NCBI GenBank assembly: GCA_004294005.1
Contig: RDZP01000006.1
Coordinates: 1-54,459, forward strand
DNA from: Cytophagia bacterium
GTDB taxonomy: Bacteria > Bacteroidota > Bacteroidia > Cytophagales > Microscillaceae
Reading direction: 5' to 3'
Length of the DNA stretch: 54,459 nucleotides
Each line of letters begins with the position of its first letter. The stretch's first letter is position 1. Below, in pieces: positions 3-54,459 of this stretch. The position numbers and the translations under genes are program-made. The notes under the pieces were generated by a model, which did no database searches, was not told the origin of the DNA, and worked only from the letters and a program-made list of their open reading frames with translations.

Positions 3-92
3 GATGCGTATAAAAATTTTGAAAATCTAAAAAAATATGTGCAAAAAATAAAACAAAATTTTGGAAAATTATATACAATTAATTTTGCATAG
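3..92 (+). mobile_element. Possible 3' end of an IS transposase gene entering from the left edge
   Basis: Plus-strand frame 3 is open from the edge to TAG at 90-92 (DAYKNFENLKKYVQKIKQNFGKLYTINFA*), directly abutting the point where the minus-strand SusC ORF degenerates. Family not assignable from 29 codons. Confidence 0.35.
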
Positions 93-48681: not shown

Positions 48682-49887
48682 TTATTCAATTAAAGAAAAA
48701 AAACTGATGTATTTTTCTATTTTATCAATTATTTCATCATTTGTCATTGTGTTTTTAACTTTAATTATTCTTTGAGCAAAAGTTTTGTTTTTGATGAAAT
48801 GTGTCCAAAAAAAATCGGGAACATTCTCTATCACAATTTCGTCATCAATGATAATTTTATTTTCTAATGGTAGAAAATTTAAAGTTCTTTTTATAAATTC
48901 ATTTGTACGAACAATATTTTTTACTTTAATGACTTTTTTATTCGGAATAGTTTGAAAATTGTTGCAAGCATCAAAGAGAATCTTCCCCTTTTCTACACAG
49001 TCAAAAAAATCTTTCACCAAAGGAATTTCTATGTTTTCAAAAAAAGTAGGAGAGGAGAGAGTATCTTCTTTGGTCTTATCGAACAAAATTTTGATAGCAT
49101 AATAAAAAATATCTTCATTTTTGATTTCTTTTTCGTAGATGATTTCATTACTTTCCCAAAAATTTTCTAATATTGAAAGACTATTTTCTGTTTTCTCAAA
49201 ATAATTGTCTAATATTTCTCTGCTTTCTTCGTCTTTACATTCTTTTTCTTTTGTTTTCTCAAATTTACGTTGTGTATCTTCTAATTTTCTTTTTAGTTTA
49301 TCAAATAATTTTTCAGACTCAGGCATAGGAGCGAGGAGATTTTCTTGGATAAGTTGATAATTATTTTCGTTTTCTATCCAAAAAATCCATTCTTTGAGTG
49401 TATATGCAAGATTTTCTTTTATTTTTAGTTGCTCCCAATTGTCTGTATCAAAAAAACAATTCCAAGATTTTTGTAATAATTTGCTTTGATTTTGCCAATG
49501 TGTTTGATAATGTTTTCTAAAAAATTTGGTAGCTTTTTCATTGATATTTTTCTTTTGTGAAGCTTGAAAAAGAGGAATTATCTTTAGATTTTTGAAAAAA
49601 GATTTTTCAACATTGCTATTACTTACCCAACAATCTTTTGAATTATCACCTATTAAAATACAAGGATTTTCAGCACTAATACGCAAGTCATCAACGTGAA
49701 ACAAAGCAAGTTTTTCTTCTTTGATAGTATTTGAAGTAGGATTTGGTTTTTGTGTCCAAATATCTGTCAATATAGATTGATTATCAATAGAAAAAAAATT
49801 TTCTACACGAAAAAATCTTTTAAAAATACCTATTTTTTCATTTTGTTCGAGTAGATTTTTGGGTTTGAAAAGCAATATGCTTGACAT
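48682..49887 (-). CDS. Hypothetical protein (401 aa) downstream of the Roco gene
   Basis: Clean ORF, same strand and 98 bp from the Roco stop; no family recognised. Confidence 0.6.
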   Translation of the reverse strand: MSSILLFKPKNLLEQNEKIGIFKRFFRVENFFSIDNQSILTDIWTQKPNPTSNTIKEEKLALFHVDDLRISAENPCILIGDNSKDCWVSNSNVEKSFFKNLKIIPLFQASQKKNINEKATKFFRKHYQTHWQNQSKLLQKSWNCFFDTDNWEQLKIKENLAYTLKEWIFWIENENNYQLIQENLLAPMPESEKLFDKLKRKLEDTQRKFEKTKEKECKDEESREILDNYFEKTENSLSILENFWESNEIIYEKEIKNEDIFYYAIKILFDKTKEDTLSSPTFFENIEIPLVKDFFDCVEKGKILFDACNNFQTIPNKKVIKVKNIVRTNEFIKRTLNFLPLENKIIIDDEIVIENVPDFFWTHFIKNKTFAQRIIKVKNTMTNDEIIDKIEKYISFFSLIE

Positions 49888-49985: not shown

Positions 49986-52874
49986 TTATTTGGTTTGTAC
50001 TTCGTAAGCGTTTATTTTTACTTCGTGTTTTACTTCTAAATCTTTTTTGAAGATGAAATCATAATCTTCTAAATAAGAATTTTCGTTTTTATGGATAGTA
50101 TCTTTGTAGTATTCTTCACTCAAAAATACTTTTAAATCCTCTGTTTTACCCAATAATCTAAAAAACATATTTACTTTATCCCCAATAAGTTGTGGCAAGC
50201 CTCTGTCAAAACTTATCCAATCCATTTTTCCAGTACTAATAGCGAAACGTAATTCAAAATCTTCAAATTGACTTTGTTTTTCATTCAAATTATTGGCTAT
50301 TTTCAACGGAATTAGTCTTTTATCTGATGTCAAATTACTGAAAGCAACTGCAAAACCGTCACCTGCAAACAAAACAGTTGCCTCGTCTGCCATAATTTTA
50401 TACTTTTCTAATTGCGTGTTAAACAAATTGATAAGTTTTTTAAAAATTCGTAATTGTGTTTGTGTTTTCTTGCCACTAAAACCAACTACATCAACGCCCA
50501 AAATATAAGTATCTTTTTCTTCTACTTTTTCTGGTACAGGGATTACTTTTTCATTTTTATTTTCCATTTCTTTTGTGGGTTCAGGTATTATAAATGTTTT
50601 CTCACTCGAAGGTTTTTTTACTTCTTGACTGAGAGAAATTTCTATTTCTTTGTATTCTAATTTTTCTTTAATTTTGTGTTCTTCATTCAGTCTATACATC
50701 AAATTATCTAAAAATGTAATGACTTTTACTTTCCATTTTTCAAAATTAAAATTATCATTTCGACTTATAAATTCATTCACATATCCATTAAATACGCCTT
50801 TATCTGCGTTATTCATTGGGTAGTTTTTTCTAATTTCTTGTATTAAATCGTTGGTTTGCGTCTCAACAGATACTTGAAATGTATCTCTAAAAGTTTCATA
50901 TTTTTGTAACATATCTTCTACTTGTTTTTTTGTAGGGTTATTATTGTTTCCTAAATTCTTTTCTACTTCCTCAAACCTCTCTTGAGAAACTTCTTTATTA
51001 TCTTTCATTTTTACTTCATTGTCAGAAAAACTTTTTGTAAATTCTAAACCAAAATCTAATAAAGTATTATCAAATTTTGCTAATAATTGTTTTGAATTTT
51101 CATAGTCCCGATAATGCACATCTATATAATTAGTACCTTTGGCAGTAAAACCTTCTATCAACACAAAACCACCATTATCATCTACGAGTTGTGTGCCAAA
51201 ACGCCACATATTTCCTGTTTCTCCATAATTGCGACTGCGAATAATCAAACTTTGTAAAGTACCATATTTTAAAAAATTAAATTGATAACGAATATAGTTT
51301 TTTTCATTTTTCCAAGTAAGTTCCATCGCTTTTGATTTTTGCATTGGAAGTAAAGCAGGAGCCAAAAATGTACGCTCTTTCAAAGGAAAAGTACGCCATT
51401 TATCTTCTTCTTTTCTATCATCTTCTATTTCAAAACACACTTCACATCGAAGCATAAAGTCAATAAACAATGCTCTTTCTGCTTCACTATACGCTTTCCA
51501 TATTGTATCTTCTAAAATTATGCCTTCGATAATACCATCTTTCTGCAAAAATTTTCGATAACTATCTGCCCTATCAAAAATCATATAAATTGCCTCGATT
51601 GCTTTCTTTTGATTGAGAATGATAACATCATTTAACACAAAAAACACACCTGTATCATGAAAATATTTTCTTAAAATAGCAATATCTTTTGAATCTGATA
51701 AATGATTATTATGACAAATTGATGTAAATTTATCAAAAGAAATGGTATCTACTTGTTTGTCTTGTTCAGTTTGTATTGCCAACTGCACACTCCACCACGA
51801 AGTAGGTATTTCAGTTGTTTCACCTTGATTGTTAAGGGCTTTTCTGATGTAATTATCTATTTCTAATTGCAAGTCTTCAAAACCACTTTCTTCGTTTTCT
51901 TTTTTAAGCGATGAATCAATGTGTAATTCTTTGAATACACCATATTTATTCAACAATTTATCTATATTGTCTTGTCTTTTGATAGTATGTTTTTCTTTTT
52001 TTACTTTGGTTTGTACCAATAACACAGGATTTTTTTTATTCTCGTGGCGGGCATATTCCAACCAATATTCAATCGGATAGTTTTGATGTTCGATATCATC
52101 TTCTTTGCAAGTAGGTAATGATTCTGTTTCCATATCCCAAACCAACAAAAACAATGCTTTGGTTTTCATAAAAATACGGTGTGTGGCATGGTACATATCT
52201 TGCCCACCAAAATCCCAAATATTCATTTGTATAAAGTCAAAGTCTTCACCTTTTGCCAATTTTTCTAATGCCTTATGGTAGATTTGTATGGCGTGTGTAG
52301 ATTTTTCTTCTTTATCAAATTTATCAAAAAGCCAACGCTTGACCAAACAAGTTTTTCCTACTCGTCCATTGCCTACTATCACAATTTTAGATTGATATAC
52401 TTTTACTTTTCCGTCTTTAAGTTTTCTGATAAAACTTTCTAATTCTTCATAACCATTCTTATTTTCAAACAATGATTGTGGCGGATTGCCTAATTCATTC
52501 TTGCTCAAAACCAAATGTTTTAGTTTTGGACATTGTTCTAAAAGTGTCAGTGATATGGTTTTTATTTGATTCTCCCCCAAATTAATCTCCTTCAACTTCG
52601 ATAAATTCCCTTTGATTTCAAAACTTTTGATTTTACTTTGATAAGCAAAAATATATTCTACATTTGGGAAAATAGCCGCATCAATGACTAATTTTTCTAT
52701 TTCAGTTTCATTATAACTCAATTCTAATATTTGCACATCAGGCATCTCAAAAGTAGGAAAATCAATGGCTGTAAATTGATTTTTACTTAAATTGACGTAT
52801 TCCACTTTGTTCGCTTTGGCTTTCTGCCAAGTATTCAAAAAACTTTGCTCAAAATAAAGTGTTCTTGTTATCAT
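49986..52874 (-). CDS. LRR-Roc-COR (Roco) GTPase with C-terminal class III nucleotide cyclase-like domain
   Basis: LRRs (NLSKNQFTAI, INLGENQIKTI); Roc P-loop VGNGRVGKTCLVKRW and NIWDFGGQDMYHATH; COR segment GVFFVLNDVIILNQKKAIEAIY; cyclase-like ILGVDVVGFSG...FAGDGFAVAF...FAISTG...LIGDKVNMFFRLLG. Confidence 0.85.
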   Translation of the reverse strand: MITRTLYFEQSFLNTWQKAKANKVEYVNLSKNQFTAIDFPTFEMPDVQILELSYNETEIEKLVIDAAIFPNVEYIFAYQSKIKSFEIKGNLSKLKEINLGENQIKTISLTLLEQCPKLKHLVLSKNELGNPPQSLFENKNGYEELESFIRKLKDGKVKVYQSKIVIVGNGRVGKTCLVKRWLFDKFDKEEKSTHAIQIYHKALEKLAKGEDFDFIQMNIWDFGGQDMYHATHRIFMKTKALFLLVWDMETESLPTCKEDDIEHQNYPIEYWLEYARHENKKNPVLLVQTKVKKEKHTIKRQDNIDKLLNKYGVFKELHIDSSLKKENEESGFEDLQLEIDNYIRKALNNQGETTEIPTSWWSVQLAIQTEQDKQVDTISFDKFTSICHNNHLSDSKDIAILRKYFHDTGVFFVLNDVIILNQKKAIEAIYMIFDRADSYRKFLQKDGIIEGIILEDTIWKAYSEAERALFIDFMLRCEVCFEIEDDRKEEDKWRTFPLKERTFLAPALLPMQKSKAMELTWKNEKNYIRYQFNFLKYGTLQSLIIRSRNYGETGNMWRFGTQLVDDNGGFVLIEGFTAKGTNYIDVHYRDYENSKQLLAKFDNTLLDFGLEFTKSFSDNEVKMKDNKEVSQERFEEVEKNLGNNNNPTKKQVEDMLQKYETFRDTFQVSVETQTNDLIQEIRKNYPMNNADKGVFNGYVNEFISRNDNFNFEKWKVKVITFLDNLMYRLNEEHKIKEKLEYKEIEISLSQEVKKPSSEKTFIIPEPTKEMENKNEKVIPVPEKVEEKDTYILGVDVVGFSGKKTQTQLRIFKKLINLFNTQLEKYKIMADEATVLFAGDGFAVAFSNLTSDKRLIPLKIANNLNEKQSQFEDFELRFAISTGKMDWISFDRGLPQLIGDKVNMFFRLLGKTEDLKVFLSEEYYKDTIHKNENSYLEDYDFIFKKDLEVKHEVKINAYEVQTK

Positions 52875-52947: not shown

Positions 52948-53135
52948 CTATACATACATAAAAAATATAAAATAATTTTTATAGATGTATATAAAATAAA
53001 TAGTAGAACTTTCATAAAAATTACTAATACTACTCTTTTGATGTAAAATAATTTTTAACTTTATTTTACTTTTTCGAATTTAAAAAAATTCAGGATAAAA
53101 ATTGGTTCATAAAGAGTCATCCGACTTATTTTGAG

Positions 53136-53300
53136 CTAAAAAACTAAAACACAACGAAATCCAATGTTGTTGTTCCTATTGTCTGCATCATTGTTGTTAC
53201 GATTACGAACAGCACAATTGTCTGTATTATTGAAATAAGCACCGCCACGATTGACAAATTGAGTAGTTTTATGGTAATTTTTACCCGTCTGCAAAAATAG
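53136..53300 (-). other. Candidate DGR template repeat (TR), immediately 3' of the RT gene
   Basis: Minus strand, in frame after RT TAG: LFLQTGKNYHKTTQFVNRGGAYFNNTDNCAVRNRNNNDADNRNNNIGFRCVLVF*; 11 of the last 37 codons are AAY; RGG...NNNIGFR matches the C-terminus of CLec/FGE-type DGR variable regions. True TR limits need a matching VR. Confidence 0.8.
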
Positions 53301-54302
53301 CTAATTAGTGTTTAAAAACAAAATTTTTTTACGCATTTTTTTTGTTTTTGCTTTTTGTATAAACACAAACAATGATGAAAGTCTATTTTGATATTGTTTT
53401 TCGGTATTTAATCCTTTTTTAAATGTAGCTTGAATGGCTTTGTATTTCTTTAAAAAACGTCTTTTACTTTTTTGTAATAATCTTAGATGTGTTCCTAAAA
53501 TTAAATAGCCTAAAAAGGGTACTCCTAATTTTGACTTTCTGAAAATAGAAAATTTCAAACTACATTCTAAATGTTTTTCTAAATAATAAGCGATTGATTT
53601 TTCACTCTTTTTGAGCGTTGATAACTCATTATCAAATAAAATCATATCATCCATATAACGCACATAACCTTTACAAACCAAATCTTCTTTGATATAATGA
53701 TCAAGTGATGCCAAATAACTATTGGCAAAATATTGACTTGTAAGATTGCCAATCGGAACTCCTTTTTTTATGCCTTTTTCACTTTCGTAACTATCAATGA
53801 TAAGTGTGAAAATACCCACTAATTTTTCCTCTTTGAACATATTACGTATTTGCTTTTTTAATACATTGTGGTCAATGCTATCAAAATATTTTTTTATATC
53901 CAATTTCAAAAAAAAAGCATATTTTTTTGTGTATTTTTTCGCTTGTTCGATAGCAAAAGAGGTTCCTTTGTCTTTTCTGCTCGCACAACTTGTATAAATC
54001 TGTTTCCTATCAAAATAAAAATGGCATACATTCATTAAGGCATGATGCAATACTTGTTCTGAAAAAGCACTTGCTGATATCAACCTTTCTTTTGGGTCAA
54101 ATATTTTGAATTGATAATAATTACCTACTTGAAGGTCATCTTCTAAAATCTGTGTCCTAAGCGTTAATAAATTTTTCTCTACATCTTTTTGGTAGTCTAA
54201 TACATTTTTATGCCACCGTTTTCCTTTGCTTGCCTTCCAAAATGCTAACCTCAAATTATCCATATCTACGATTTTTTCTATCAAATAATTTGCTCTTTTC
54301 AT
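53301..54302 (-). CDS. DGR-type reverse transcriptase
   Basis: 333 aa; FFLKLDIKKYFDSIDHNVL (catalytic D), KGVPIGNLTSQYFANSYLASLDHYIKE (DGR-type GxxxSQ in place of QGxxxSP), GYVRYMDDMILF (YMDD), GVPFLGYLI; no maturase or X domain. Confidence 0.88.
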   Translation of the reverse strand: MKRANYLIEKIVDMDNLRLAFWKASKGKRWHKNVLDYQKDVEKNLLTLRTQILEDDLQVGNYYQFKIFDPKERLISASAFSEQVLHHALMNVCHFYFDRKQIYTSCASRKDKGTSFAIEQAKKYTKKYAFFLKLDIKKYFDSIDHNVLKKQIRNMFKEEKLVGIFTLIIDSYESEKGIKKGVPIGNLTSQYFANSYLASLDHYIKEDLVCKGYVRYMDDMILFDNELSTLKKSEKSIAYYLEKHLECSLKFSIFRKSKLGVPFLGYLILGTHLRLLQKSKRRFLKKYKAIQATFKKGLNTEKQYQNRLSSLFVFIQKAKTKKMRKKILFLNTN

Positions 54303-54459
54303 ATTTTTTTAAATTAAGTAATTGTAGCACACACTTTTAGTGTGTGGACACACTAAAAGTGTGTGCTACGATTTTTTCTATCAAATAATTTGCTCTTTTC
54401 ATATTTTTTTAAATTAAGTAATTGTAGCACACACTTTTAGTGTGTGGACACACTAAAAG
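54266..54459. repeat. 100-bp tandem direct duplication spanning the RT start codon and a REP family B palindrome (second copy cut by the window edge)
   Basis: CTACGATTTTTTCTATCAAATAATTTGCTCTTTTCATATTTTTTTAAATTAAGTAATTGTAGCACACACTTTTAGTGTGTGGACACACTAAAAG occurs at 54266 and 54366. Confidence 0.95.

Follow-up and report, generated by a model that had tools for sequence, protein, structure and literature searches.

A diversity-generating retroelement (DGR) that lies at the end of one contig and has its target on another raises the question of how such an element finds the gene that it diversifies. How the cDNA of a DGR enters its variable region (VR) is incompletely understood (PMC12875486). In DGRs like that of Bordetella phage BPP-1, a stem rich in GC and closed by a 4-nt loop follows the VR, and it has been proposed that DGR retrohoming has a conserved need for a hairpin or cruciform at this place (PMC3240598). 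The window analyzed here is the whole of contig C129 (54,459 bp) from a 2.78-Mb genome in 217 contigs that is 79.8% complete. The features of the element, including those on the second contig C184, are summarized in Table 1.

Table 1. Features of the DGR and of its target locus. Positions without a prefix refer to the window; positions with the prefix C184 refer to that contig.
Feature	Position	Strand	Remarks
DGR-type RT, 333 aa	53301-54302	(-)	IGNLTSQ and YMDD motifs; right end of contig
TR, 135 bp	53136-53270	(-)	43 adenines on the TR strand
Sp, spacer directly 3' of TR (CTCAAAATAAGTCGGATGACTCTTTATGAACC..)	53102-53135	(-)	reverse complement directly 3' of the C184 VR
Small Sp hairpin AGTC[GGAT]GACT	53115-53126	(-)	same hairpin with changed stem in many relatives
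TGAACC in Sp	53104-53109	(-)	lineage consensus GAACAG; far end of the paired stretch
Palindromic interspersed repeat	54306-54459	.	present twice; 94-bp tandem copy includes the RT start
Target gene, 353 aa	C184:5614-6675		EAD7 N-terminal (E 9e-9) and FGE-sulfatase
VR	C184:6541-6675		3' end of the EAD7-FGE gene; 135-bp block shared with TR

The reverse transcriptase (RT) carries the DGR motif IGxxxSQ together with the catalytic YxDD and is closest to DGR RTs. It matches the Pfam family RVT_1 (5e-15), and its best match by sequence among solved structures is 8ub7 (a 328-aa RT, 4.8e-34), which we take to be the Bordetella DGR RT; the bRT of BPP-1 has the same length, 328 aa. The second-best match in the PDB is a group II intron RT (1.5e-10). 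The closest relatives of the RT belong to DGRs of Bernardetiaceae and Thermoflexibacter (55-58% identity). It groups with the RTs of HRDC-bearing DGRs, which is the outcome of the phylogenetic check that the initial annotation had proposed, and its template repeat (TR) lies 3' of the RT, as in the HRDC-type lineage. An Asn-rich segment after the RT stop (53136-53294, minus strand) matches FGE-sulfatase (E 4e-5), and the 3' end of the TR is the TAG that closes the conceptual frame "RGGAYFNNTDNCAVRNRNNND...". The initial annotation had read the IGNLTSQ and YMDD motifs as those of a DGR RT and the Asn-rich segment as its TR. Both readings hold: the first agrees with the motifs, the affinity of the RT and a VR that differs at adenines only, and the second with the position of every one of these differences at a TR adenine. 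The element belongs to the HRDC-type lineage of DGRs.

A genome-wide search with the region after the RT, also suggested by the initial annotation as a search for a second copy with mismatches only at TR adenines, found one second copy (C184:6541-6709, 83% identical). TR and VR differ at 15 positions over 135 bp, and in 15/15 of these the TR base is an adenine, which the VR replaces by G in 7 cases, by T in 6 and by C in 2. Since 43/135 TR bases are A, the bias has a hypergeometric P of 4.9e-9. The translations are KTTQFVNRGGAYFNNTDNCAVRNRNNNDADNRNNNIGFRCVLVF for the TR and NTTQFVDRGGAYFFNTGNCAVRYRRHNDAGNRDNFIGFRCVLVF for the VR, each followed by a stop. Mutagenic copying from TR to VR is established DGR logic: the RT would reverse-transcribe the TR RNA, inserting random bases wherever the template has an adenine, and the resulting cDNA would take the place of the VR that closes the EAD7-FGE gene elsewhere on the chromosome. 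The expectation of an FGE-type target outside the window was correct on both counts, as the VR is on another contig and closes a gene whose FGE-sulfatase domain (E 4e-37) covers residues 138-350 of 353; the VR ends at the stop codon. The preceding gene (C184:5091-5564) also bears EAD7, the effector-associated domain 7 found at the N-terminus of the target. EADs have been proposed as homotypic coupling adaptors of conflict systems, with EAD7 among the effector recruiters (PMC7159879), which makes the role of a variable sensor or effector plausible for the DGR target. A cluster of palindromes and repeats follows the VR (C184:6700-7070) and is different from the palindrome on the RT side.

The DGR adjoins a gene for an LRR-Roc-COR (ROCO) GTPase (49986-52874, minus strand). 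A 64-aa stretch of the ROCO protein resembles N-terminal sequence of the EAD7 gene that precedes the C184 target (28% identity, E 5e-7), and this resemblance suggests that the ROCO and C184 EAD7 loci could possibly be coupled. The C-terminal part of the ROCO protein (50000-50700, minus strand; "FAGDGFAVAFSN...LRFAISTGKM") resembles a class III nucleotide cyclase by eye, with no Pfam match at 0.1. Beside it, a 401-aa protein (48682-49887, minus strand) has a weak Type_ISP_C match (E 4.5e-4, below the family cut-off) and may be what is left of a type ISP restriction enzyme.

Upstream of the RT start, the contig breaks off after 157 bp, inside a repetitive palindrome. The genome carries 40 or more copies of this palindromic repeat (unit of ~72 bp), and many of them are at contig ends; one copy lies no more than 20 bp from the RT start, where the HRDC gene ends in relatives. 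These repeats break the assembly and hide the sequence upstream of the RT. The common order in relatives is target (VR) - HRDC gene - RT - TR, with a gap of ~600 bp between VR and RT, and an HRDC accessory (PF00570) is found in 64/64 related loci with a TR/VR pair. The initial annotation saw no Avd in the window; the accessory to be expected for this RT lineage is HRDC rather than Avd. The HRDC gene is not seen because the contig ends within the palindrome. Neither an HRDC gene nor the usual nearby (cis) VR was found elsewhere in the incomplete assembly, and both may be in missing sequence or have been lost. One weak HRDC match in the genome, in a 735-aa frame, was considered as the accessory and rejected as RecQ-like. 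The Avd profiles PF05635 and PF22296 gave no match in the genome, and they gave none in the controls either. Rfam matches were all below the gathering score and nearly all at the contig-end palindrome.

The spacer directly 3' of the TR, Sp, was passed over by the initial annotation. A genome-wide search finds the 32 nt after the TR as a reverse complement after the C184 VR (E 2e-4). In the full alignment, Sp -3..34 is matched with VR flank -3..34, or 37 positions counted from the TR/VR boundary, with a score of 49. This score was reached by 0/300 shuffles and is among the best matches of the set. The copy after the VR is referred to here as Sp'. The 3' ends of TR and VR are nearly identical at this locus.

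The inverted match is a trait of the HRDC-type RT lineage, in which it reaches p<0.01 in 69/76 TR/VR pairs, leaving 7/76 without a significant match. In the same windows it was found in 4/100 viral, mostly Avd-type pairs (2/41 BPP-1-like, 2/53 other viral and 0/6 named-phage pairs) and in 0/16 Avd-type plasmid pairs. These windows reach 30 nt into the repeats and were widened because BLAST overshoots the ends of TR and VR; widening raised the lineage count from a first 54/76 with narrow windows, also at p<0.01, and was applied to the controls too. Median scores in the narrow windows were 30 for the inverted match, 12.5 for the direct match and 12 for non-cognate partners, and the signal is found in the inverted orientation only. 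The shuffles preserve single-base content only; the controls with non-cognate partners, Avd-type pairs and sister pairs are independent of shuffling. In a second sample of 396 genomes of the phylum, which partly overlaps the first and from which one opposite-strand artefact was left out, 13/14 HRDC-only pairs match and 0/4 with Avd do, as sorted by the author; the raw script count is 13/16 HRDC pairs and 0/3 others. Extra VR copies within a locus were rejected as independent support, since they sit in duplicated segments. An RT tree places the HRDC rows apart from the viral rows (quick method, support 72), and the trait may have arisen once. A DGR on the Prosthecochloris aestuarii plasmid pPAES01 (3691-5514) has both HRDC and Avd genes before the RT and two VRs with insertions relative to the TR; no inverted Sp match was found there (L250) at either VR with ends set by hand.

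The pairing can be followed at the level of single positions. Sp positions 1-13 are Watson-Crick paired in 87-100% of loci (46 pairs), compared with shuffle means of 33-76% at most variable Sp positions (33-74% at positions 5-13), and up to four Watson-Crick pair types occur per position. The VR-flank anchor was set blind to the Sp of its own locus; it consists of positions 1-4, which hardly vary and therefore carry little information. Among 18 non-overlapping sister pairs with RTs 50-95% identical, 58 compensatory double changes were counted against 15 single changes (4 in Sp only, 11 in the flank only). With permuted partners, compensatory changes averaged 7.4 and never exceeded 28. Sp and the VR flank are kept in register either by compensatory selection or by repeated copying.

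The complementarity is also kept in other gene orders, with the TR before and the VR after the RT in L035, with the VR after the TR in L020 and L023, and with the remote VR of the present genome. The match therefore tracks the VR and not the cassette. This bears on two other explanations that start from the usual order. In one, Sp' and Sp would pair within a transcript of the target-HRDC-RT-TR operon, forming a long-range RNA stem by which the template RNA is stabilised, processed or regulated. The usual order does put Sp' and Sp on one strand ~1.7 kb apart, and the sequence data suit RNA:RNA pairing as well as RNA:DNA pairing; a stem of this kind is nevertheless unlikely given that the match persists with the VR on another contig and in the three reversed orders. 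In the other, HRDC-RT-TR would be a mobile cassette with Sp' and Sp as its terminal inverted repeats, and in the usual order inverted copies do bracket HRDC-RT-TR. Remote or extra VRs (that on C184 and those of L025, L026 and L029) carry Sp' without a cassette behind it, and the best-matched end is the inner one, beside the TR, which makes this explanation hardly credible.

The hairpin known from BPP-1 is not found in its usual place. A hairpin of the BPP-1 type was defined as a GC-rich stem of 7-10 bp that carries a GRNA loop of 4 nt and lies at a distance of 4-34 bp from the VR, on its 3' side. In the C184 VR flank no such hairpin was found, and the best perfect stem is 4 bp with the loop GCCAAG. 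No VR flank of the HRDC lineage has a perfect stem of at least 7 bp, and the flanks mostly fold no better than shuffled sequence, while the same kind of scan recovers GNNA-loop hairpins in most of the BPP-1-like set. With DNA parameters, the predicted duplex of Sp with the flank has a median of -23 kcal/mol versus a median of -3 for self-folding. The element could still be an ordinary DGR in which Sp' acts as a DNA hairpin or cruciform and its match to Sp is incidental. Homing of BPP-1 does need an element at the same place (PMC3240598), and part of the BPP-1 hairpin arm (CTTGGCGG..GGCCTTTC) is complementary to its own spacer, with Sp 23-41 matching VR flank +13..+28 (L096) better than all 500 shuffles. 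BPP-1 was nevertheless rejected as a member of the group with the match: only 2/41 close relatives, BPP-1 counted, have one at p<0.01, so its own match is probably a coincidence. The BPP-1 stem can moreover be changed in sequence without loss if hairpin pairing is restored (PMC3240598), and pairing with Sp is thus not needed there. In the HRDC lineage the flanks lack the stem and stay matched to the cognate Sp through compensatory changes, which a self-hairpin does not require, and the ordinary hairpin is very improbable as an explanation.

The complementarity points instead to pairing between Sp and Sp' as the target address, standing in for the self-hairpin of BPP-1-like DGRs. On the strength of these sequence comparisons, this reading is given a probability of roughly 0.6; we infer that the pairing occurs, that it is between RNA and DNA, and that it sets the target. 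Sp RNA would pair with its reverse complement 3' of the VR and so address the retrohoming complex to the VR. Sp' would mark the VR, and not the TR, as the recipient despite their nearly identical 3' ends. The inverted orientation fits this arrangement: for the cDNA and an attached Sp RNA to pair with one and the same target strand, the coding strand, Sp' has to be inverted, since Sp is sense and the cDNA antisense to the TR. The cDNA of BPP-1 has a covalent joint to a spacer adenosine, the site of priming (PMC12875486). If the joint here were like that of BPP-1, a single target strand would hold cDNA and Sp RNA in direct succession, with the conserved GAACAG near the junction, and by analogy with A56 of BPP-1 the TGAACC of the present Sp is a possible priming site. 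Two forms of the address can be envisaged: the branched Sp-cDNA molecule may dock at Sp', or a nicked VR strand may anneal to Sp as a primer.

Priming could also be the whole function of the match. After a nick behind Sp' in the coding strand of the VR, the 3' end would anneal to Sp and prime reverse transcription into the TR, a target-primed variant in which Sp' is a primer. The pairing usually starts where the TR ends, and the strictest part of it is Sp 1-13, which a primer would need to have matched; an open toehold on the 5' side of the Sp hairpin would also agree with this strictness. As the priming site of BPP-1 is a spacer adenosine (PMC12875486), and as the product of such priming would be joined to the coding strand inverted and need a further step, a pure primer role is distinctly unlikely, and the address remains the preferred reading.

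Base pairing that sets a target site has a precedent in a related RT family. Group II introns use EBS-IBS pairing, in which bases of the template RNA pair with the target DNA to set the site. Unlike EBS-IBS pairing, the pairing proposed here would be beyond the replaced segment and inverted. The DGR of BPP-1 (bRT, Avd, TR, VR, IMH and hairpin/cruciform) shares with the present one a DGR-type RT, adenine-specific change of the VR, a C-type-lectin-fold gene with the VR at its 3' end, an element directly 3' of the VR and a spacer 3' of the TR. It differs from the present DGR, which belongs to the HRDC lineage instead of having Avd, has the TR after the RT, nearly identical TR and VR 3' ends and an inverted Sp match, and lacks a self-hairpin after the VR. 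The TvpA DGR of Treponema denticola (PMC4891356) resembles the HRDC lineage in its HRDC accessory and C-type-lectin-fold target, and it is likewise cellular rather than phage-borne, with several VRs per genome; its accessory gene, however, lies between TR and RT. An FGE/FGS-type variable domain is also found in the DGR-diversified conflict-system proteins of multicellular bacteria (PMC10907252; FGS domains and EADs, PMC7159879). Beyond this plain likeness, the variable domain here is fused to EAD7 and has a second EAD7 gene next door. The proteins of PMC7159879 work through VMAP/MoxR-vWA systems, and the likeness here is in the FGE and EAD7 domains.

The DGR itself is of a known kind, and the co-evolving match between spacer and VR flank sets its lineage apart. 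No mention of the inverted match was found in the open literature searched, a scope outside which Wu et al. 2018 and the recent DGR structure papers lie. Extended to all HRDC-type DGRs, the proposal is that they find their targets by pairing of a template-linked spacer RNA with a DNA tag after the VR, a co-evolving, guide-like address that could be rewritten; in this general form it is tentative, with chances somewhat short of even. The comparisons describe a large cellular DGR lineage that lacks the known hairpin and whose VR flanks carry a sequence match that covaries with the template spacer. If the proposal is true, it would provide a direct, testable rule for the choice of target by DGRs. 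It would also offer a possible way to aim DGR mutagenesis and to redirect it to another gene for protein engineering.
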